A stretch of 64,000 nucleotides of DNA from Pegethrix bostrychoides GSE-TBD4-15B (lineage in GTDB: Bacteria; Cyanobacteriota; Cyanobacteriia; Elainellales; Elainellaceae). The translations under genes were made by a program, and so were the position numbers. How positions within the stretch are numbered: the first letter of the stretch is position 1; each line of letters opens with the position of its first letter. Where the stretch lies: NCBI GenBank assembly GCA_019359155.1, contig JAHHHV010000087.1, positions 1 through 64,000 on the forward strand. Reading direction: 5' to 3'. The notes under the pieces were generated by a model. It was given only the letters and a program-made list of their open reading frames with translations. It did no database searches and was not told where the DNA came from. Shown one piece after another: positions 11,725 through 36,267 of this stretch.

Positions 11725-12990
11725 ATGCAACGCTCTAACCTTGCGGATCTTTCCTGCGAGCAGCTAAACCTGGCTGAGCGCTACCTGCAAGTCCGCCAGC
11801 TCAGCGATTGGATTACCCAGCCACTCGCCACAGAAGACTATGTGATTCAGACGATGCCCGATGTCAGCCCACCCAAATGGCATTTGGCACATAGCACTTG
11901 GTTCTTTGAAACATTTCTGCTGGTGCCCCATCTCCCGGCCTACGAAGTTTTTCATCCCCAGTTTGGCTATCTGTTCAACTCCTACTACGAAACAGTCGGG
12001 GCACGCCATCCTCGTGCCCATCGAGGTTGGCTCTCACGGCCAACCGTCGAGACCGTCTTTCAATATCGAGCCTACGTAGATGCAGCCATGCAGCGACTGC
12101 TGGAGCAGCTGCCCACGCCCGATCTGGCAGTGCTGCTGACGCTAGGGCTACATCATGAGCAGCAGCACCAAGAGCTACTGCTTACTGATATCAAACATAT
12201 TCTGGCGCTCAATCCGCTGCGTCCAGCCTATCGAGAACAGCTGCTGCCTGCGCCCAGCATTGCGCCGCGAGAGCAGTGGCTAGACTATGCGGGCGGGCTA
12301 TACCAGATTGGCGCTCAGGGTGATCAGGGATTTGCCTTTGATAATGAGCTGCCGCGACATCCGGTCTATCTGCAAGACTACTATCTGGCCAACAGGCTGG
12401 TGACTAACGGTGAATATCTAGAGTTTATGCAGGCCGGAGGCTATAGCCAAGCCGAGCACTGGCTGGCAGAAGGCTGGACAGTCGTTCAGGCGCAGCAGTG
12501 GCAGGCTCCGCTCTACTGGGAGCAAATGGACGGGGACTGGTGGGAAATGACGCTGACAGGCTTGCGGCCTCTCAATCTGGAAGCGCCTGTCTGTCACGTC
12601 AGTTTTTATGAAGCGAATGCCTATGCCCGCTGGCGCGGCAAGCGACTGCCCACCGAAGCTGAGTGGGAAGTCGCCGCTGCCTCAATTGCCATCCAGGGCA
12701 ATTTTCTCGCTCAGGGCTATCTACATCCTGTGCCTGCTCTGGGCAGATCTCGGCCTGACCAGCTCTATGGTGACCTGTGGGAATGGACGGAGAGCGCCTA
12801 CTCACCCTATCCCGGCTTTCAAATTGCGGCAGGAGCAGTCGGTGAATACAACGGTAAATTTATGTGCAACCAGATGGTGCTGCGCGGCGGCTCTTGCGTT
12901 ACGCCTCCCCATCATGTTCGTCCGAGCTACCGCAATTTCTTCCCGGCTGCGACTCGCTGGCAGTTTAGCGGCATTCGCTTAGCCCAGTAG
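11725..12990 (+). CDS. egtB: Ergothioneine biosynthesis sulfoxide synthase EgtB
   Basis: Iron-dependent enzyme that joins hercynine to a thiol (gamma-glutamylcysteine or cysteine) to form the sulfoxide precursor of ergothioneine. The 421-residue product has the two expected parts: a DinB-like N-terminal domain with iron-ligand motifs WHLAHSTWFFE (H53/H56 region) and HHEQQHQE (H144, H148), and a C-terminal formylglycine-generating-enzyme-like domain (CHVSFYEANAYARWRGKRLP, LRGGSCVTPPHHVRPSYRNF). Length is normal for the family. It is followed 74 bp later by egtD. No egtA, egtC or egtE is seen here, as in other bacteria with minimal egtBD loci. Confidence 0.93.
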   Translation: MQRSNLADLSCEQLNLAERYLQVRQLSDWITQPLATEDYVIQTMPDVSPPKWHLAHSTWFFETFLLVPHLPAYEVFHPQFGYLFNSYYETVGARHPRAHRGWLSRPTVETVFQYRAYVDAAMQRLLEQLPTPDLAVLLTLGLHHEQQHQELLLTDIKHILALNPLRPAYREQLLPAPSIAPREQWLDYAGGLYQIGAQGDQGFAFDNELPRHPVYLQDYYLANRLVTNGEYLEFMQAGGYSQAEHWLAEGWTVVQAQQWQAPLYWEQMDGDWWEMTLTGLRPLNLEAPVCHVSFYEANAYARWRGKRLPTEAEWEVAAASIAIQGNFLAQGYLHPVPALGRSRPDQLYGDLWEWTESAYSPYPGFQIAAGAVGEYNGKFMCNQMVLRGGSCVTPPHHVRPSYRNFFPAATRWQFSGIRLAQ

Positions 12991-13064
12991 CCTATCTATC
13001 TTGTCGGATTTACCCGATATTTTGCTCGACCGCTTTATCTACAGCTCGATCTATACCTGACTCT

Positions 13065-14084
13065 ATGACAACCTCAATGACGACCTTAGTGACAACCTCT
13101 ATGACAACCTCAAGCTGCCAATCCACCGTTCAGCTCTACGACCTGCATCCGCCGCTGGATGACTTTCGCAGCGAAGTCTTGCGGGGATTAATGCAACCTG
13201 CTAAGTCGATCTCTCCCAAGTTTCTCTATGACAAGCAAGGCGCGGAATTATTTGATGAAATCTGTGAGCTAGAGGAGTATTATCTCACTCGTACCGAGCT
13301 GTCAATTCTGCAAGCTTACGCCCCAGAGATTGCCGCCTATTTGCAGGAAGCGGTGCTAGTCGAGTTCGGCAGCGGCAGCAGTCAGAAGGTACGAATCTTG
13401 CTGGACGCTATGCCCGATTTATTAGCTTATGTAGCGCTCGATATTTCCCGACAGCATTTGCAAGAGTCCTGCGAAAATCTGGCTATCGCCTATCCCCACC
13501 TGAAGACAGTGGCGATTTGCGCTGACTACATGCAGCCGCTGGAGCTTCCCAACATTCCGGCTCTCCAGCAGCGCCGGCGAGTCGGATTTTTCCCTGGCTC
13601 AACAATTGGCAATCTAGAACCAGCCGAGGCCGTGCAGTTTCTCAAACAGGCCGCAATATTATTGGGAGCAGGGGGTGGGCTACTCATTGGCGTGGATCTT
13701 CAAAAAAGCCCAGATATTCTAGAACCTGCCTATAATGACGCTCAGGGGATTTCAGCCGAATTCGCGCTTAACGTGCTGACGCGAATCAATCGAGAGCTGG
13801 GCGCTGATTTTAATCGCGATCAGTTTGAGTACACAGCTGTCTACAATCAAACGGCTGGGCGAATTGAAATGTATATTACTAGCCTCACTGCTCAGACTAT
13901 CCATCTAGATGGCGTGAAGATTGCCTTTGAGCAAGGCGAACGCCTCCGCACTGAATACTCTTATAAATATAGCGTCCCGCAGTTTCAAGCGCTGGCCGCG
14001 CTGGCTGGGCTTGAAGCTGCGCAGGTTTGGATCGATCCGCAGCAGCTATTTAGCCTACACTATCTGCAACTCCCTAAGCGCTAG
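13065..14084 (+). CDS. egtD: L-histidine N-alpha-methyltransferase EgtD
   Basis: SAM-dependent enzyme that trimethylates histidine to hercynine, the first step of ergothioneine synthesis. The SAM-binding motif is VEFGSGSSQKV. Family motifs SPKFLYDKQGAELFDEICEL, EEYYLTRTE, FFPGSTIGNL and LLIGVDLQKSPDILEPAYND are all intact; 339 residues is near the usual length. The first 16 residues (MTTS-MTTL-VTTS-MTTS) come from a 12-bp tandem repeat that duplicates the start region, so the true initiation codon could be any of several ATGs between 13065 and 13101. A strong terminator follows, so the FMN reductase-egtB-egtD unit ends here. Confidence 0.93.
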   Translation: MTTSMTTLVTTSMTTSSCQSTVQLYDLHPPLDDFRSEVLRGLMQPAKSISPKFLYDKQGAELFDEICELEEYYLTRTELSILQAYAPEIAAYLQEAVLVEFGSGSSQKVRILLDAMPDLLAYVALDISRQHLQESCENLAIAYPHLKTVAICADYMQPLELPNIPALQQRRRVGFFPGSTIGNLEPAEAVQFLKQAAILLGAGGGLLIGVDLQKSPDILEPAYNDAQGISAEFALNVLTRINRELGADFNRDQFEYTAVYNQTAGRIEMYITSLTAQTIHLDGVKIAFEQGERLRTEYSYKYSVPQFQALAALAGLEAAQVWIDPQQLFSLHYLQLPKR

Positions 14085-14201: not shown

Positions 14202-14435
14202 CTATGCCTGAGTGTTGTCGTAGATTTCCCAGCTTGAACCATTGTCAATGCCGCCTGCAACACCCGTGAGTTGTTCAGGCGCTAGCTCTCCGGACGCGAG
14301 TTGAGCAACTCCAGCTTTGAGATCCTCAGGGGTAAAGTCAAAATTGTGAGCGGCTCCGAGTTTGACCAAGTCGGCCTGAAGCGTTTCGCTGCTGCCAATG
14401 GACTGAAGTAAGCTAAATACGGCTTGTACGGACAT
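14202..14435 (-). CDS. Nif11-type leader peptide (RiPP-like precursor)
   Basis: A 77-residue product: a Nif11-like leader (AVFSLLQSIGSSETLQADLV, then an FTPEDLKAGVAQL helix) ending at the double-glycine site LTGVAGG, then a 15-residue core, IDNGSSWEIYDNTQA. Nif11/NHLP leaders direct peptides to modifying enzymes and are removed by C39 peptidase-exporters. The core has no cysteine but has Ser, Thr and Asn. ATG at 14435 is chosen because GGAGG lies 5 nt upstream; an in-frame ATG at 14447 lacks one. No maturase is adjacent. It is downstream of a histidine kinase and an FNR-type regulator on the same strand, and an NHLM exporter is encoded 14 kb away. Confidence 0.85.
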   Translation of the reverse strand: MSVQAVFSLLQSIGSSETLQADLVKLGAAHNFDFTPEDLKAGVAQLASGELAPEQLTGVAGGIDNGSSWEIYDNTQA

Positions 14436-14568
14436 ATCGACCTCCAAGATTGATTGAATATGAAAATAATAGCGTGACTCTTCTAGCTATACCTTAGTAG
14501 TGGCTGATAGTTTTATGAGATAGCGCTGATTGTATGGCTAATTTATGCGATGAGCATGACCAAGGGCT

Positions 14569-28250: not shown

Positions 28251-29282
28251 ATGACAGAGATTCTGTTGAGAGAGCTGACCCGAAGCGATATCGACTGGAT
28301 GGCAACCGCAGGGCAGAGGCGAATTTTTGCAGCAGGCGCAACCGTGCTGGAAGCAGAAGCCACAGACTATGACATGTATTTAATTCTAGAAGGCGCTCTG
28401 GCGCTGCTGCTGCCCGGTGCAGAAGAGATGCAGGAGCTGTCGGTGCTCTCCAGCGGCGATATTCTGGGCAGCTTTTTTCTGTTCAACAGCTACAGCTTCC
28501 CCGTAACTGTGCAGGCCAAAGAAGCCAGCCTGCTCCTAGCCATCCCGCAGTCGGTCATGCTCGACAAGCTGCAAAAAGACGAAGCCTTCAGCGCTCGGTT
28601 CTTCCGGGCAATGGCGCTGCTGTTGGCTCACCGCCAGCAAGAAATTATCCAGCGCTCGCCCCGCAGCTTAGTGATACAGTCTCTGTTTGAAAAAGGGATG
28701 CTCTCCACCTTTAGCTGCCTACAGGATGGCGATCTTTGCTGGTTTTGCAGTCGAGGGCAAGTGCAGCGAGTCGAGCCGGGTTGGCGCATTCCGGAAGGCA
28801 AGCCGCTCGATGCACTCTATATTTTGCTGAAGGGCAGTTTGGCGATGCTCGTCTGCAATCAGCAGCGTCAGGCGCTGTCGCTGGCGTTTGGAGCCGTTGA
28901 ATCCACCGCCGCAGACTGCGTGGCCGAACTACAGCCCGGTGAAATCTTGGGAGTCACGCAGATGCTGGGGCTGGGCACTAATCCTTACGCTATAGAGGCG
29001 ACAGTTGATTCACTGCTGCTTGCCGTGCCGCTATCGCAGCTGAATACCCAGCTCCAAGCAGATCCGGGTTTTGCCTCCCGCCTGTACCGCGCCCTAGCTA
29101 GTGTCACCGCCGACCGCACCCAGCGAATTCTGCTGCGCCTGCGAACCGAGCGGATCTCTGCGCCTACCATGAGTCAGATGCGCAATGAGAGTGAGGCGCT
29201 GGGAGTCGAGGTGCTTCAGCAGATGTCGGTGGCGCGCGCTAAGTTTAACTGGCTGCTGAAACAGCTAGATGTCAAGGTGTGA
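28251..29282 (+). CDS. Double cyclic-nucleotide-binding-fold protein of the NHLM locus
   Basis: 343 residues containing two CNB beta-rolls, about 10-140 (LEAEATDYDMYLILEGALAL; LSSGDILGSFFLFN) and about 170-290 (WRIPEGKPLDALYILLKGSL; LQPGEILGVTQMLGLG), with no DNA-binding domain. Proteins with this layout accompany NHLM bacteriocin-type transporters, and the second NHLM transporter here has a similar N-terminal region. Neither roll has the canonical cAMP phosphate-binding cassette (G-E-x6-R-A), so nucleotide binding is doubtful; a structural role at the exporter is more likely. First gene of a + strand run with the secretion protein and peptidase exporter. The stop codon lies in a 13-bp duplication (29268-29293). 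Confidence 0.78.
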   Translation: MTEILLRELTRSDIDWMATAGQRRIFAAGATVLEAEATDYDMYLILEGALALLLPGAEEMQELSVLSSGDILGSFFLFNSYSFPVTVQAKEASLLLAIPQSVMLDKLQKDEAFSARFFRAMALLLAHRQQEIIQRSPRSLVIQSLFEKGMLSTFSCLQDGDLCWFCSRGQVQRVEPGWRIPEGKPLDALYILLKGSLAMLVCNQQRQALSLAFGAVESTAADCVAELQPGEILGVTQMLGLGTNPYAIEATVDSLLLAVPLSQLNTQLQADPGFASRLYRALASVTADRTQRILLRLRTERISAPTMSQMRNESEALGVEVLQQMSVARAKFNWLLKQLDVKV

Positions 29283-29376: not shown

Positions 29377-30018
29377 ATGGCTAATCAACCCCCTAATAAA
29401 CCCGCTCAGCAACCCAGCCAGATTTTTCGTCCAGAGGCGCTAGAGCAAGCTTCCTCAGTTGAGCAGCTCGACCAGCTGATGCAGGTGACGAGCCTCAAAG
29501 ACTGGCTGCCGCTGGCCTCAGTTGGGCTGTTGCTCACGGGCGCGTTAATTTGGAGCATAGTCGGCAGGATTCCCATGTCGGTAGAAGCTAGGGGAGTACT
29601 GCTTACGGAAGGCGATGGACAGCCCGTGGTGAGTCTGAGCTATTTTCCAATTGCCCAGGGCAAGCAGATCCAGCCCGGCGACAAGATTTTAGTGGTGCCC
29701 GATACGGTGAATGTGCAGGCTTACGGCGGACTCAATGCCACCGTAACCGCCATTTCCCCCACTGCCGTCACCGAGCAGTCTGTCGCGCAGCGGATTGGTA
29801 CGCCTGAGCTAGCAGAGCTAGTCTATGCGCCTGCTTCTGTGGAAGTGACCGCTGAGCTAGAGCCAAACCCAGCCAACTCGACGGGCTACCAGTGGTCGAT
29901 GTCAACCGGGCCACAGCAGCCCCTCTCCAACCAAACCCCCACTCACGCTCAGGTCGTATTGCAGCGCCGTTCGCCGATTAGCTATGTGTTTCCGTTCTTG
30001 CAGCGCCAACAGTCGTAA
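29377..30018 (+). CDS. NHLM-type secretion (membrane fusion) protein, short form
   Basis: 213 residues. The N-terminal FRPEALEQASSVEQLDQLMQ and LKDWLPLA motif, followed by one membrane helix (VGLLLTGALIWSIVGRI, about 48-65), is characteristic of NHLM secretion proteins. A periplasmic HlyD-like beta domain follows (IAQGKQIQPGDKILVVPD, then RRSPISYVFPFL at the end). Typical HlyD-type adaptors carry a long alpha-hairpin; here there is essentially none, so it cannot reach an outer-membrane channel by itself. It should pair with the two ABC exporters in this locus. Its stop codon is followed immediately by a 7-bp tandem repeat. Confidence 0.82.
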   Translation: MANQPPNKPAQQPSQIFRPEALEQASSVEQLDQLMQVTSLKDWLPLASVGLLLTGALIWSIVGRIPMSVEARGVLLTEGDGQPVVSLSYFPIAQGKQIQPGDKILVVPDTVNVQAYGGLNATVTAISPTAVTEQSVAQRIGTPELAELVYAPASVEVTAELEPNPANSTGYQWSMSTGPQQPLSNQTPTHAQVVLQRRSPISYVFPFLQRQQS

Positions 30019-30088: not shown

Positions 30089-32404
30089 ATGAATATTTTG
30101 ACAGAACGTTGGTGGGGACTGGGAAGATCTGCGCCGCAATCTGCGCCAAAGGCTCCCTCAGAAAAGTCGCCCTCAGAGACGCGAGCCAAAGCAATTCGGG
30201 TCAGAACGCCAGTTTTGCTGCAAATTGAGGCGGTAGAATGCGGCGCAGCAGCCCTGGGGATCATCCTCGGCTACTATGGCCGGATTGTGCCGCTGGCAGA
30301 ACTGCGGCAAGCCTGTGGGGTTTCACGGGAGGGCAGCTCAGCCGCCAATATTATTCTGGCTGCCCAAAACTACGGCATGATTGCCAAGGGCTACAAAAAA
30401 ACGCTGGAGCGCCTGCTAGAGCTGCCGCCGCCCTACATTGTCTTCTGGCGCTTTGAACATTTTTTGGTGGTCGAGGGCTTCAATGCCGATTACAGCCTGG
30501 TCTATCTCAACGACCCGGCCAGCGGTCGGCGCTCGATTGCGATGGAAGAATTTGACCAGAGCTACACCGGCGTGGTGCTGAAGATTGAGCCGGGTGAGCA
30601 GTTTCAGCGCGGCGGACGCAAAAAAAGCGTGGTGGGGTCACTGCGGCTGCGGCTGCGGCAGTCCTATCCAGCCTTGATCTACTGCATCGCGGCAGGGTTT
30701 CTGCTGGTGATCCCGAACTTGGCGCTGCCGATTTTTAGCCAGCTGTTTGTCGATCAGGTGCTGGTGCGGCAGCAGTTGGGCTGGTTTCCGGGGCTGCTGC
30801 TGGCGATTTTACTGGCGGTGGGGCTGCAAGGGCTGCTGACGGCTTGGCAGCTTCAGGCACTCCGCAAGCTGCGGATGAAGCTGTCGGTGAGTCTGGCGAG
30901 TCAGTTCGTCTGGCATGTGCTGCGGCTGCCTGCCGGGTTTTACGCCCAGCGGTTTCCCGGCGAGATCAGCAGTCGGGTCAGCCTGAATGACCAGGTGGCG
31001 GAGGTGCTGTCGGGAGAGGTGACAACGACGATTATTAGCGCAGTTTTGGTCGGATTTTATGCGCTGCTGATGCTGCAATACAGCCCGCTGCTAACGGGGA
31101 TTGTCGTCTGCTTCGCCCTGCTCAACGTGGCAGTGCTGCAATGGGTGGCGCAGCGGCGGATTGATGTCAACAGCCGCATCTCGCGCGATTTTGGCAAGGT
31201 GGACGGCGTAGCAATTGCTGGACTGCAAAGCATCGAAACCCTGAAGGCATCGGGGCTAGAGTCTGACTTTTTTGCCCGCTGGGCTGGGTTTTACACCAAG
31301 GCGACCAACGCCCGATCTGAGCTGGCGCTGGTGTCGCAGCGGATTGGCGTATTGCCCTCGCTGCTCTCCACGCTGAGCATGGTGGCGTTGCTGGGCGTGG
31401 GTGGCTGGCAGATTTTGCAGGGCCAGATGACCATCGGCATGCTGCTGGCGTTTCAGCTTTTGACCCGTAGCTTTCTTACACCCATTAACAACCTGGTTAA
31501 GTTTGGCAAAACCTTGCAGGATCTATCAGGCAATCTGACCCGGCTGGACGATGTGCTGGACAATGCGGCTGATCCAACACTGACCCCGAAGCTGGCAGCA
31601 GGCGCGCCTACGAGCGCAGAGCCGCAGCTGAGCTTTACTGGCCAGGGCTTTACTGGCCAGAGCTTTACTGGCCATCGCTTGCAGGGCTATGTCGAGCTAG
31701 AGCGGATCTCGTTTGGCTATAGCCGGGGCAGTGCGCCTTTGATTCAAGACTTTAGCCTGTCGATTCGCCCCGGACAGCGGGTGGCGCTGATTGGCGGCAG
31801 TGGTTCTGGCAAATCCACCATTGCCCGGATCGTTTCAGGACTCTATGAACCTTGGCAGGGCGAAGTGCGGCTAGATGGCGTTGCTCGTGCCCAAATTCCC
31901 CGCTCGGTGCTGACGGATTCGATTGCGGTGGTTGACCAAGATATTTTGCTATTTGCAGATACAATTCGCCATAACCTGACGCTCTGGGATGCGACTGTAG
32001 CTGAGAGCGCCCTGCAAAAAGCCTGCGAGGATGCGGCGATTCACGAGGTGGTGCTGTCGATTCCGGGCGGCTACAGCGCTGAACTGAGCGAAGGTGCAGC
32101 CAACCTCAGCGGCGGACAGCGGCAGCGGCTGGAGATTGCTAGAGCCTTGGTCAATCAGCCTTCGATTCTGATTATGGATGAGGCGACGAGCGCGCTGGAC
32201 TCGGAAACCGAGAAAATCATTGACCAAAACCTGCGGCGGCGGGGCTGCACCTGCCTGATTGTGGCGCATCGGCTCAGCACCATCCGCGACTGTGACGAAA
32301 TTATTGTCCTGGAGCGAGGCAAGGTGGTGCAGCGGGGAACGCATGAGACGCTCTGGGAGGCAGATGGCCCCTATACTCATTTAATCAGCAGCGAAGCTGG
32401 CTAG
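30089..32404 (+). CDS. NHLM peptidase-containing ABC exporter (C39 peptidase-TMD-NBD)
   Basis: A 771-residue bifunctional exporter that removes double-glycine leaders and transports the core peptide. The C39 peptidase (about 38-165) is complete: oxyanion Gln45, Cys51 in EAVECGAAAL, His124 in FEHFLVVEG and Asp142 in NDPASG. Six membrane helices follow (about 190-480). The ATPase has Walker A IGGSGSGKSTIA, signature LSGGQRQRLE and Walker B ILIMDEATSALD. The linker before the ATPase contains an in-frame 15-bp repeat (FTGQ three times). It belongs to the NHLM type; its best local substrate is the triple-GG precursor encoded convergently at 32509-32769. Confidence 0.92.
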   Translation: MNILTERWWGLGRSAPQSAPKAPSEKSPSETRAKAIRVRTPVLLQIEAVECGAAALGIILGYYGRIVPLAELRQACGVSREGSSAANIILAAQNYGMIAKGYKKTLERLLELPPPYIVFWRFEHFLVVEGFNADYSLVYLNDPASGRRSIAMEEFDQSYTGVVLKIEPGEQFQRGGRKKSVVGSLRLRLRQSYPALIYCIAAGFLLVIPNLALPIFSQLFVDQVLVRQQLGWFPGLLLAILLAVGLQGLLTAWQLQALRKLRMKLSVSLASQFVWHVLRLPAGFYAQRFPGEISSRVSLNDQVAEVLSGEVTTTIISAVLVGFYALLMLQYSPLLTGIVVCFALLNVAVLQWVAQRRIDVNSRISRDFGKVDGVAIAGLQSIETLKASGLESDFFARWAGFYTKATNARSELALVSQRIGVLPSLLSTLSMVALLGVGGWQILQGQMTIGMLLAFQLLTRSFLTPINNLVKFGKTLQDLSGNLTRLDDVLDNAADPTLTPKLAAGAPTSAEPQLSFTGQGFTGQSFTGHRLQGYVELERISFGYSRGSAPLIQDFSLSIRPGQRVALIGGSGSGKSTIARIVSGLYEPWQGEVRLDGVARAQIPRSVLTDSIAVVDQDILLFADTIRHNLTLWDATVAESALQKACEDAAIHEVVLSIPGGYSAELSEGAANLSGGQRQRLEIARALVNQPSILIMDEATSALDSETEKIIDQNLRRRGCTCLIVAHRLSTIRDCDEIIVLERGKVVQRGTHETLWEADGPYTHLISSEAG

Positions 32405-32440
32405 ATATGGAAGGTGCAAGCTGCGTAAACATAAAATAAT

Positions 32441-32464
32441 GCCGTCATACGGCTGCATGACGGC
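32441..32464 (-). terminator. Intrinsic terminator of the precursor peptide gene
   Basis: GCCGTCAT (32441-32448) and ATGACGGC (32457-32464) form an 8-bp stem. On the minus strand it is followed by ATTATTTTATG, a U-rich tail. It lies between the exporter stop and the precursor stop and can end transcription of the precursor. Confidence 0.7.
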
Positions 32465-32508
32465 AAAACACTTAAACTAGATGAATTAGAAAAGGAACGT
32501 TAGACTCG

Positions 32509-32769
32509 TTACTCTTCGTTGGAAGGCTTGCGGTAATACTGACCGCCATCTGCACCGCCTGCCACGTTTGACAGGTCATCAGCGCTGAGTTCTTCAGCCC
32601 GCTTGGAATACTGACCGCCATCTTCACCGCCCGCTATCGTGGCCGCTTCGTCGGTGCTCAGCTCGTCAGCGCTCAGACCCAGATTCTTCTTAGAATACTG
32701 ACCGCCATCTTCACCGCCCGCTACAGTCGTCAGTTCGTCTTGATTCAGCTCTTCTTTTTCTGTAGACAT
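32509..32769 (-). CDS. Multi-core RiPP-like precursor with three GG/core modules
   Basis: An 86-residue acidic peptide built of three modules. Each has a leader-like helix segment (QDELTT, ADELST..., ADDLSN), a double-glycine site (TVAGG, TIAGG, NVAGG) and a core: EDGGQYSKK, EDGGQYSKR and ADGGQYYRK. At DNA level copies one and two share about 30 identical bases. The start is ATG at 32769 with GGAGG 5 nt upstream; a longer frame to 32829 lacks a ribosome-binding site. It lies between two NHLM ABC transporters. No LanM, YcaO, radical-SAM or other maturase is nearby, so modification is uncertain. A basic pair after each GGQYS/Y could be a second processing point. I know no described family with this core. 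Confidence 0.85.
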   Translation of the reverse strand: MSTEKEELNQDELTTVAGGEDGGQYSKKNLGLSADELSTDEAATIAGGEDGGQYSKRAEELSADDLSNVAGGADGGQYYRKPSNEE

Positions 32770-33387: not shown

Positions 33388-36267
33388 ATGGAGAAAACGC
33401 AGTTGCTGCGGGCAAATGCACCTTTGCTGCTGAATCAGCCGGATCGAATCTATCGAATTCAAGCCGGCTCTGTCGCAGTTTTTGCGGTGTCGTTGGCTTC
33501 AGGTCAACCCGAAGGGGAGCGGCACTACCTGTTTAGCTGCGCGAGCGGCGAGGCGCTGTTTGGCAGCGATGCGGCTGAGTCTGGGCTTGAGTCTGGGCTT
33601 GAGTCTGGGCTGCTGGCCGTGCCGATTGAGCCAGCTGAGGTGACTCAGGAGCCGTTGACCGCCTTGCCTCAGGCTGAGCTTGGCCGACTGGTCGAATCCT
33701 GGCTGCTGCATCTGAGCCAAATTGACGGCCTGCCCCAGCCCGAACCGACGCGCAGCCCGGAAATTGCGCCGTTTTTATCGCTGATGCAGGGGCAGATTTT
33801 GCAGCCGCCCCGTAATCAGGTTCTCTGGGTGCAGCTTCAGCAGGGCGAGGCGGCCTGGCTAGGGCTAGACTCGCTGCGGCTCACCCCCGCAACCGGAATT
33901 CTGCCGCTGGCCGGAAGCTGGCTCGCCACCAGCAGTGCCGTCGAACTCCAGACTCAGCCCACCGAGTCGCTCAATGCCCAGCAGATTCAGCAGGGGATGA
34001 CGACGCTGCATCACTGGCTGCTGCAATCTCTGGCCATCCTGCAAACCCAGGCAGAGCAGGTTGCCCAACGGCAGTTTCAGCAGCGGCAGCAGCAGAATCG
34101 GCAGGCGATGCAGCAGACGCTCTACAATCTGGCCTCGGTGCTGAAGCCAATCCCGGTGCAGCCAGCAGGGGACTTGAGCGCTCTACTCAGCGTCGCTGGG
34201 GCAGTCGGTCAGGCGCTGGGCGTGACGATTCAGCCGCCCGTCGAGTCTGATCAGGGCGTGGCGATGCGCGATCCCCTGGAGGCAATTGGCCGAGCCTCGC
34301 GGTTGCGGCTGCGGCGGGTGCTGTTGCGGCAAGGCTGGTGGCAGCAGGACTGCGGGGCGCTGATTGCCTACCGCCGCGAGAGCCGCAGTCCGGTGGCGCT
34401 GCTGCCAATGGCGGGTGACCATTACGAGCTGTACGACCCAAGTCGTCCGCAGCGGCAGGTGGTGACGGCTGCGGTGGCGGCTACTCTCGAACCGCGCGCC
34501 TTCATGTTTTATCGGGCGCTGCCGCATCGGGCGCTGAAAGCCTGGGACATCATGCAGTTCACCCTGCGCGGACGACGCAAAGATCTGTTGGTGTTCGGGC
34601 TGATGGGGATTGGCGTGACGCTGGTGAGCCTGCTGTTTCCGCTGGCAACCGGCCTGATTATCGATGCGGCTTTGCCAGTCGGCGATCAGGCGCTGCTTTG
34701 GCAGGTGAGTCTGGGGCTGCTGTTTGGGGCGCTGGGATCGGCTGGACTAGAGCTGATTCAGGGGATGGCGGCGATTCGGCTGAACACGATTTCTGAAGCC
34801 GCGCTCCAGGCCGCAGTCTGGGATCGACTGCTTCAGCTCAAGCCCACCTTTTTTCGCGACTATGCGATTGGCGATTTGGAGTCGCGCGTGTCGGGCATCA
34901 GCAAAATCTACCGCAAGCTGACGGGTTCCACGATTCAAACCCTTCTCAGCAGTCTGTTTGCGCTGATTAGCTTTGCCCTGATGCTGAGCTATAGCCCACA
35001 GCTTGCCTTGGTGGCGCTGCCCGTAGCGCTGATTACGATCATGTTCACCGTGATTTCCGGGGCATTGCTGCTGCGTAAAACCCGCCCCCTGCTGGAGATA
35101 GAAGGCGAGATTTTTGGCCTGCTGGTGCAGCTTTTGGGGGCGGTGCCAAAGCTGAGGCTGGCCGGAGCTGAGGAGCGGGCTTTCGCCACTTGGGGCAAAA
35201 AATATACGACGCGGCTGAAGCTGGACTTGAGTACGCAGTACATCGAAAACAGCGTCACAATTTTTAATACCGTGATGCCGACGCTGACGGCGCTGCTGCT
35301 GTTCTGGCTGCTGGTGCAGCTGATGCAAAGCGGCAATGGCCTCTCGACGGGGGCGTTTCTGGCCTTTAGCGCTGCCTTCGGAATTTTTATCAGCGGTGTC
35401 ACCAGCCTCAGCAATACGCTGATCAATCTGCTGGAAGTCGTCACGCTCTGGCAGCGATCCCAGCCGATTTTGGCAGCTGAACCGGAAGTCGATCCTGACA
35501 AATCAAATCCGGGCAGGCTCAGAGGTCAGGTGGTGGTCGATCGGGTGACGTTTCGCTACCGCAGCGACGGGCCGCTGACGCTGGATCAAGTGAGTTTGCG
35601 GGCTGATCCGGGTGAGTTTGTGGCAATTGTCGGGCCGTCTGGTTCCGGGAAGTCTACGCTGCTGCGGCTCCTGCTGGGCTTTGACAGTCCGGCTGAGGGC
35701 ACGATTTACTACGACGGACAGGATTTATGCGGGCTGGAGATTACCGCCGTGCGGCGACAGTTGGGGGTAGTGCTGCAAAATAGCCGGATGAATGCTGGAA
35801 CGCTGTTTGAAAACATTTCGGGGAACGCTCTGATCTCGATGACGGATGCCTGGGCTGCTGCCGAGATGGCGGGTTTGGCTGACGATATTCACGCGCTGCC
35901 GATGGGGATGCATACGTTTATTAGCGAGGGCGGCACTAACTTTTCGGGCGGGCAGCGGCAGCGGCTCATGATTGCGCGGGCGCTGGCGCTGAAGCCGCAG
36001 CTGCTGCTGTTTGACGAAGCGACGAGCGCTCTCGATAACCGGACGCAGGCGATTGTCACCGACAGTCTAGATCGACTGGGCGTGACCCGAATCGTAATTG
36101 CCCATCGGCTCAGCACCATTCGCAGCGCAGACCGGATCTACGTGATCGAGGCGGGGCAGGTAACGCAGCAGGGGCGATTTGAGGAGCTGGTGGCGCAGCC
36201 CGGACTGTTCAGCCAGCTTGCGGCGCGGCAGTTGGGCGATGTCTCGGCGCCTTCAGTGAGCCAGTGA
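33388..36267 (+). CDS. NHLM-type ABC transporter, permease/ATP-binding protein without active peptidase
   Basis: A 959-residue second exporter of the locus, matching the NHLM 'ABC2' type. Residues 1-220 form a variable CNB-like region with a 12-bp in-frame repeat (ESGL three times). Residues 240-390 are a degenerate peptidase-like region (RVLLRQGWWQQDCGALIAYR, then GDHYELYDPSRPQ) lacking a full C39 triad. Six membrane helices follow (about 395-690), then an ATPase with Walker A GPSGSGKSTLL, signature FSGGQRQRLM and Walker B LLLFDEATSALD. It probably forms a heteromeric complex with the peptidase exporter. An FNR-type site lies upstream. An 8-bp repeat (five copies) runs through its stop codon. 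Confidence 0.9.
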   Translation: MEKTQLLRANAPLLLNQPDRIYRIQAGSVAVFAVSLASGQPEGERHYLFSCASGEALFGSDAAESGLESGLESGLLAVPIEPAEVTQEPLTALPQAELGRLVESWLLHLSQIDGLPQPEPTRSPEIAPFLSLMQGQILQPPRNQVLWVQLQQGEAAWLGLDSLRLTPATGILPLAGSWLATSSAVELQTQPTESLNAQQIQQGMTTLHHWLLQSLAILQTQAEQVAQRQFQQRQQQNRQAMQQTLYNLASVLKPIPVQPAGDLSALLSVAGAVGQALGVTIQPPVESDQGVAMRDPLEAIGRASRLRLRRVLLRQGWWQQDCGALIAYRRESRSPVALLPMAGDHYELYDPSRPQRQVVTAAVAATLEPRAFMFYRALPHRALKAWDIMQFTLRGRRKDLLVFGLMGIGVTLVSLLFPLATGLIIDAALPVGDQALLWQVSLGLLFGALGSAGLELIQGMAAIRLNTISEAALQAAVWDRLLQLKPTFFRDYAIGDLESRVSGISKIYRKLTGSTIQTLLSSLFALISFALMLSYSPQLALVALPVALITIMFTVISGALLLRKTRPLLEIEGEIFGLLVQLLGAVPKLRLAGAEERAFATWGKKYTTRLKLDLSTQYIENSVTIFNTVMPTLTALLLFWLLVQLMQSGNGLSTGAFLAFSAAFGIFISGVTSLSNTLINLLEVVTLWQRSQPILAAEPEVDPDKSNPGRLRGQVVVDRVTFRYRSDGPLTLDQVSLRADPGEFVAIVGPSGSGKSTLLRLLLGFDSPAEGTIYYDGQDLCGLEITAVRRQLGVVLQNSRMNAGTLFENISGNALISMTDAWAAAEMAGLADDIHALPMGMHTFISEGGTNFSGGQRQRLMIARALALKPQLLLFDEATSALDNRTQAIVTDSLDRLGVTRIVIAHRLSTIRSADRIYVIEAGQVTQQGRFEELVAQPGLFSQLAARQLGDVSAPSVSQ

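Follow-up and report, generated by a model that had tools for sequence, protein, structure and literature searches.

The precursor gene and its exporter locus

The window, by which we mean the whole stretch of 64,000 nucleotides that was analysed, contains a small open reading frame on the minus strand (32509..32769; ATG at 32769, stop at 32511-32509). Its 86-aa product, MSTEKEELNQDELTTVAGGEDGGQYSKKNLGLSADELSTDEAATIAGGEDGGQYSKRAEELSADDLSNVAGGADGGQYYRKPSNEE, has the layout of a tandem leader-core precursor with three modules. The coordinates and the sequence pattern of this peptide had been given in the original prediction and stand, with the correction that the gene is located on the minus strand. 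A Shine-Dalgarno-like GGAGG occurs upstream of the ATG, and the stop codon is followed by a terminator-like hairpin (32440..32465, minus strand) with an 11-bp stem and a T-rich tail, TTATTTTATG. A promoter-like match upstream of the gene (33009-32980) is weak and barely exceeds chance expectation, and no Rfam match to a known structured RNA was obtained at the precursor locus. The AlphaFold model of the precursor has a mean pLDDT of 52 and is, at this low confidence, uninformative; no fold is visible.

The neighboring genes on the plus strand encode a cNMP-binding bacteriocin-type transport-associated protein (28251..29282; TIGR03896, 183.8 bits, cut-off 161), a short NHLM HlyD adaptor of 213 aa in which the hairpin region is missing (29377..30018; C-terminal part of TIGR03794, 145.8 bits, below the cut-off of 156.2), the C39 peptidase/permease/ATPase ABC1 (30089..32404; TIGR03796, 1071.5 bits, cut-off 853) and, beyond the precursor, the permease/ATPase ABC2 (33388..36267; TIGR03797, 950.8 bits, cut-off 709). 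With regard to an NHLM export system, both ABC proteins thus score above their cut-offs while the HlyD protein is short and scores below its own. The precursor had been described as lying between two NHLM exporters; the flanking position is correct, but the two proteins are the ABC subunits of a single system, the C39-containing TIGR03796 and TIGR03797. The C39 domain of ABC1 (30089-30560) possesses Gln45, Cys51, His124, and Asp142. Across 28 ABC1 proteins, the first three residues are present in all, and Asp142 is present in 26 (Asn in two).

Three modules with C39 protease motifs

As predicted, the translated ORF contains TVAGG, TIAGG, and NVAGG, each followed by (E/A)DGGQY(S/Y); the cores of modules 1, 2, and 3 read EDGGQYSK, EDGGQYSK, and ADGGQYYR, respectively. 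Beyond the GG alone, each of the three sites bears the C39 protease motif L(-12)....(L/A)(-7)..(V/I)(-4).GG. All segments are on the minus strand. Leader 1 (residues 1-19, 32713..32769, ..LNQDELTTVAGG) carries the complete C39 contact set of L-12, L-7, V-4, and GG. Core 1 and leader 2 (residues 20-48, 32626..32712, EDGGQYSKKNLG + ..LSTDEAATIAGG) form a predicted C39 product of 29 aa with L-12, I-4, and GG and with Ala instead of Leu at -7. Core 2 and leader 3 (residues 49-72, 32554..32625, EDGGQYSKRAEE + LSADDLSNVAGG), again with L-12, L-7, V-4, and GG, form a predicted product of 24 aa, and core 3 (residues 73-86, 32512..32553, ADGGQYYRKPSNEE) would be released as a 14-aa product. Thus, of the features of a double-glycine leader (L-12, L-7, a hydrophobic residue at -4, and GG, GA, or GS), modules 1 and 3 display all, and module 2 deviates by Ala-7. 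The precursor also matched the bacteriocin signal model TIGR01847 (bacteriocin_sig) with 28.7 bits at a cut-off of 15.7. The C39 motif occurs three times in the precursor, while 200,000 shuffled versions of it included 180 with one motif and none with two or more; the pattern was drawn up post hoc from the precursor sequence and, hence, tolerates Ala at -7.

Conservation and selection

A relative of the same genus (G004:C174, CASBQH010000174.1, locus L018) encodes a homologue with four modules. When the two genes were compared without the relative's extra module, differences occurred at 41 of 59.5 synonymous and 10 of 198.5 nonsynonymous sites, corresponding to a dN/dS of 0.028, which is approximate since synonymous change is close to saturation. 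The corresponding values for ABC1, HlyD, and the cNMP protein of the same genome pair were 0.085, 0.115, and 0.118, respectively. The low value for the precursor clearly points to a real translated gene with strong purifying selection on the peptide. The ORF is small and of low complexity, and nothing further speaks for a chance or decayed reading frame; this explanation is contradicted by the dN/dS and by the conservation of position and motifs in ten genomes, and we regard its probability as negligible.

According to the original prediction, each core comes with its own leader and GG site, and homologues with the same architecture were to be looked for near exporters. Searches of relatives yielded 13 EDGG-type precursors in ten genomes and six genera, all from the window's own family (f1), as well as a variant with an AG site in an eleventh genome. 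All 13 have retained the repeated unit, with 2-4 modules each, and 10 of the 13 belong to NHLM/C39 loci. In a scan of genome contigs with the single protein, the sole match was the MAG of the same genus. A phylum-wide EDGG family was rejected, as a profile run against 390 genomes of the class matched family f1 only; a weak match in G027:C20 (E 0.05, within a 939-aa frame) was missed by the profile and was dropped. Typical units are LSEDELSTVSGG-EDGGFRRQ, LNQEDLSKISGG-EDGGFLHQ, LSDAELSQASGG-HDSGQYSG, and LYDEDLNRISGG-QDGGNRRS, and one precursor (G013:C72) combines two differing core types in one gene.

The order cNMP, HlyD, ABC1, antiparallel precursor, and ABC2 is found in all eight intact EDGG loci. 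The G021 locus is split between two contigs, one with the precursor and ABC2 and the other with the cNMP, HlyD, and ABC1 genes, and the G008 locus is interrupted by contig ends. No exporter genes were found near the second precursors G013:C72, G015:C5, and G033:C2. In an all-against-all comparison of the EDGG loci, broad sharing was limited to the cNMP, HlyD, ABC1, precursor, and ABC2 genes.

Among the 40 modules of the EDGG-type precursors, L-12, V/I/A-4, and GG occur in 40/40 and L-7 in 37/40; besides module 2 of the window's precursor, Leu-7 is lost in two modules of the same-genus relative, whose counterpart of module 2 has Thr. The internal modules keep the contact positions constant while the remaining leader positions vary, with five to seven residue types at each of -11, -10, -9, -6, and -5 among 22 distinct internal leaders. 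Core octamers are 80% identical within and 48% identical between precursors, and none of 5,000 label permutations reached as high a value. Judged from these comparisons, the modules look as if they had been duplicated and homogenised inside each gene, with the cores diverging between species. Such concerted cores fit selection for multiple copies of one peptide; recent duplication by itself could also have produced them.

Proposed processing of the precursor

We propose that the precursor is probably a peptide polyprotein that the neighboring C39-ABC transporter cuts after each GG, exporting the pieces. In each cassette, a short core would follow a minimal C39 recognition helix that terminates in GG. 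The adjoining transporter would bind the cassettes and cleave behind each GG, perhaps less well in module 2, where cleavage is less certain because the -7 position is Ala here and Thr in the relative. The exported pieces would be EDGGQYSKKNLGLSADELSTDEAATIAGG, EDGGQYSKRAEELSADDLSNVAGG, and ADGGQYYRKPSNEE (29, 24, and 14 aa). The C39 domain LahT150 has been found to cut a synthetic 17-mer with only the last 13 leader residues (PMC6363468), and the internal cassettes should therefore be long enough as C39 substrates. In the same study, cleavage was prevented or severely reduced when a charged residue occupied -4 or -7, and most changes at -12 impaired it; the contact positions of LahT150 are those fixed in the EDGG-type modules (PMC6363468). 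No information on Ala or Thr at -7 was found in that paper.

An alternative is cleavage at the first GG only, resulting in a single acidic repeat peptide of 67 residues in which the internal leader-like segments are kept by duplication or as a mature part. The cassettes plainly arose as duplicated DNA, and the loss of Leu-7 in module 2 and in two modules of the relative would be in line with such a product, as would family f13, whose apparently related cores repeated after one leader indicate that repeated cores need not be excised singly. However, all internal modules retain L-12, a hydrophobic -4, and GG while -11, -10, -9, and -5 vary, as would be expected for protease contacts. The range of 2-4 modules is odd for a single folded product, and the AlphaFold model is without a fold. 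We therefore consider this alternative unlikely.

For the polyprotein reading, the expectation that C39 cleavage would release three free EDGGQY peptides had to be abandoned: the predicted cuts leave the next leader on cores 1 and 2, and only the last core, of 14 aa, would be free. As cleavage at GG gives a core plus the next leader, short free cores other than the last would require a second protease; the attached leader may be trimmed by a periplasmic or extracellular peptidase. A two-step maturation, which refines the polyprotein reading and does not exclude it, would combine C39 cleavage at each GG with a housekeeping or secreted protease acting behind the core (after KK, KR, or RK) and freeing copies of 7-9 aa such as EDGGQYSKK. 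Near-identical cores within one gene would suit this scheme, basic residues follow EDGGQYS in the window's genus, with RR in several relatives, and removal by a PCAT plus a second protease is known in lanthipeptides (PMC10885120). In contrast, relatives with LHQ, NHE, NQ, or YSG have no basic pair, so that dibasic cleavage was rejected as a general second step, and the all-against-all comparison revealed no dedicated or conserved second protease gene in the EDGG loci. We regard two-step maturation as possible but doubtful.

Near-identical cores within one precursor would increase the amount of a single short secreted peptide, for which a signal or competition function is most plausible. A signal role for the cores is at best plausible; it would fit their repetition in near-identical form, the fact that modifying enzymes are lacking, and the EbfG precedent in Synechococcus elongatus. 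The short predicted peptides could be looked for directly in culture medium.

Relation to known peptide systems

Several known precursor families were considered and rejected. The precursor stayed below the cut-offs for NHLP leader precursors (TIGR03793, 11 versus 50.9 bits), Nif11-like precursors (TIGR03798, 13.1 versus 32.3 bits), CTB family bacteriocins (NF038167, 25.1 bits in the leader only, versus 32), and class IIc bacteriocins (Pfam Bacteriocin_IIc, PF10439, 23.7 versus 27.1 bits). A graspetide of the microviridin type was rejected as well, as no ATP-grasp ligase is encoded among the neighbor genes and none is conserved across the EDGG loci.

Double-glycine precursors mostly give rise to one peptide per gene. 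Class II bacteriocins, ComC-type pheromones, and EbfG1-4 of Synechococcus elongatus resemble the precursor in having the same leader signature and an adjacent processing exporter, but they consist of one leader and one core, as opposed to the 2-4 leader-GG-core repeats described here. Secretion of the EbfG biofilm peptides requires the cysteine of the C39 peptidase (PMC4997328). Cyanobacterial NHLM/NHLP systems with NHLP, Nif11, or CTB precursors share the exporter genes (TIGR03796, TIGR03797, TIGR03794-like HlyD, and TIGR03896) with the EDGG loci; they differ in the precursor, which here is below the respective cut-offs, and in the HlyD protein, which has about 200 aa here versus 321-617 aa.

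Cyanobactins, the AMdnA microviridin, chryseoviridin, and Bacteroidetes graspetides likewise have several cores per gene; multi-core RiPPs are well known (PMC5934393), and precursors with several GG motifs have previously been noted in Bacteroidetes graspetides (PMC8939145). In contrast to these, the EDGG loci have no ATP-grasp, rSAM, or heterocyclase gene, the precursor repeats the whole C39 leader motif, and its cores are near-identical. The earlier statement that no known modifying enzyme adjoins was borne out: Pfam revealed none among the window's neighbors, and none is conserved across the EDGG loci. Thus, the modifying enzyme expected of a RiPP was found neither in the neighborhood nor by locus comparison. 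Nevertheless, an enzyme whose gene lies elsewhere in the genome could modify the cores, as in a classical multi-core RiPP. The Asp, Glu, Tyr, Ser, and Lys residues of the cores could serve as substrates, and such exporters serve RiPPs, as exemplified by the NHLM exporter beside TOMM genes in Nostoc sp. C057. With no such enzyme among the window's neighbors or common to the EDGG loci, we consider modified cores quite improbable.

No occurrence of the core strings was found in the literature searched; as subscription papers were outside the search, priority is uncertain. A survey of cyanobacterial bacteriocins does not contain the words repeat or tandem (PMC3140520), and the closest repeated-leader precursors found were the multi-GG graspetides. 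The predicted novelty thus holds for the core sequences, for which no description was found, but not for multi-GG precursors as such, which had been noted in Bacteroidetes (PMC8939145). What appears to be new is the repetition of the full C39 leader, conserved together with a dedicated exporter clade and a short HlyD. Repeating the protease-recognition leader for each core would be a simple means to multiply or mix secreted peptides, and this layout would be a natural template for the engineered secretion of multiple peptides.

A possible exporter subtype with a short HlyD

The ABC1 survey comprised all 28 genes above cut-off in 36 genomes of family f1. Twenty ABC1 loci fell into a short-HlyD group (194-213 aa): 10 EDGG loci, 8 loci with LNERF precursors, and two loci of G012 in which a single GG precedes a short core. 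In one LNERF genome (G014), HlyD is located on a separate contig beside its precursor and is clipped by the contig end; in G021 and G008, HlyD is together with ABC1, and the precursor is on a different contig. The remaining 8 loci constitute a long-HlyD group (478-559 aa, one interrupted) with long-core precursors that contain one GG; a single precursor of this group was scanned and matched the CTB bacteriocins with 63 bits. Tandem-module precursors were present in 18/20 short-HlyD and 0/8 long-HlyD loci (Fisher 1.4e-5, for cases that are not phylogenetically independent). In the ABC1 tree, one strongly supported branch (100/100) separates the two groups, and the EDGG loci form one group (100/100). 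The association of short HlyD and tandem precursors, therefore, goes back in essence to a single branch of the f1 ABC1 tree and does not amount to 28 independent cases.

Against the long HlyD genes of plasmid records, the alignment of the short HlyD opens a gap of 0.7-0.8 kb at about residues 76-83. From the known architecture of HlyD proteins, we take this gap to be the hairpin region, of about 275 aa, that is missing from this protein of about 200 aa. AlphaFold predicts nothing beyond a TM helix and a beta domain for the short HlyD (pLDDT 75), and Foldseek returned weak matches to periplasmic adaptors, mixed with unrelated folds. In a sample of 292 genomes of the phylum, short HlyD occurred in the window's genome and in G066 only; the other listed matches occupy frames of 321-617 aa. 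A precursor with tandem cores is encoded in G066, too. Whether and how these exporters reach the outer membrane is a question that follows from the association of tandem precursors with a hairpin-less HlyD.

In the yeast alpha-factor precursor, a repeated unit of spacer, cleavage site, and core gives rise to several copies of one peptide. The likeness to the precursor studied here is in layout only, as alpha-factor depends on the eukaryotic secretory pathway and Kex2-type proteases. Tentatively, the NHLM systems with a hairpin-less HlyD may be a subtype specialised for peptide polyproteins, with either repeated leader-GG-core cassettes or repeated cores behind a single leader, that are cut into copies of one short peptide. 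Such a system would be the bacterial parallel to the yeast alpha-factor precursor and might provide a cyanobacterial cell-cell signal.

Other tandem precursors and additional candidate substrates

Via weak matches, a second tandem family was reached in eight genomes of f1. These LNERF precursors contain the repeated unit [..EEQLSDEQLEGVSGG][LNERFDEAR..LNK] and are encoded antiparallel to and upstream of the cNMP gene in sister NHLM loci. In other families, an apparently related core is repeated behind a single leader, as GGVNFDELRRENLDKDATNFDELRRENLDKD in f13 and as three repeats in G038, and one ORF (L137 663-944, G384:C334) has the order leader-core-core-leader-core-core with the cores VDFDQLRRENLDKD, intermediate between the two architectures. 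Based on the single-leader core repeats and this mixed ORF, single-leader multi-core and multi-cassette precursors appear to interconvert, the homology of the core types being judged by eye. The short-HlyD NHLM loci L132, L133, L134, and L136 (f13) and L135 (f4) encode peptides in which a single GG leader precedes two or three acidic cores in tandem, ..LRRENLDKD or ..EEF..GLGNK.

The window contains a second GG-leader peptide (14202-14447, minus strand), located about 14 kb from the exporter, which is Nif11-like and scores 23.5 bits with TIGR03798, below the cut-off. Its L018 homologue (12893-13126) adjoins the cNMP gene, and the exporter of the EDGG locus may, therefore, also serve this Nif11-like peptide. 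Next to the orphan two-module EDGGFNHE precursors in L028 and L029 (G015:C5 and G033:C2), which have no exporter genes nearby, a product starting ..YIVVGAGSAGCVVANRL is encoded in each case that looks like a GMC oxidoreductase. Finally, L125 (4234-4446, G008:C56) encodes, upstream of the cNMP gene, a single-GG peptide that is unrelated and has a tail rich in Pro (PETEPTFPTPPYPEDIA); because of this position, one exporter may have two substrates at G008:C56.
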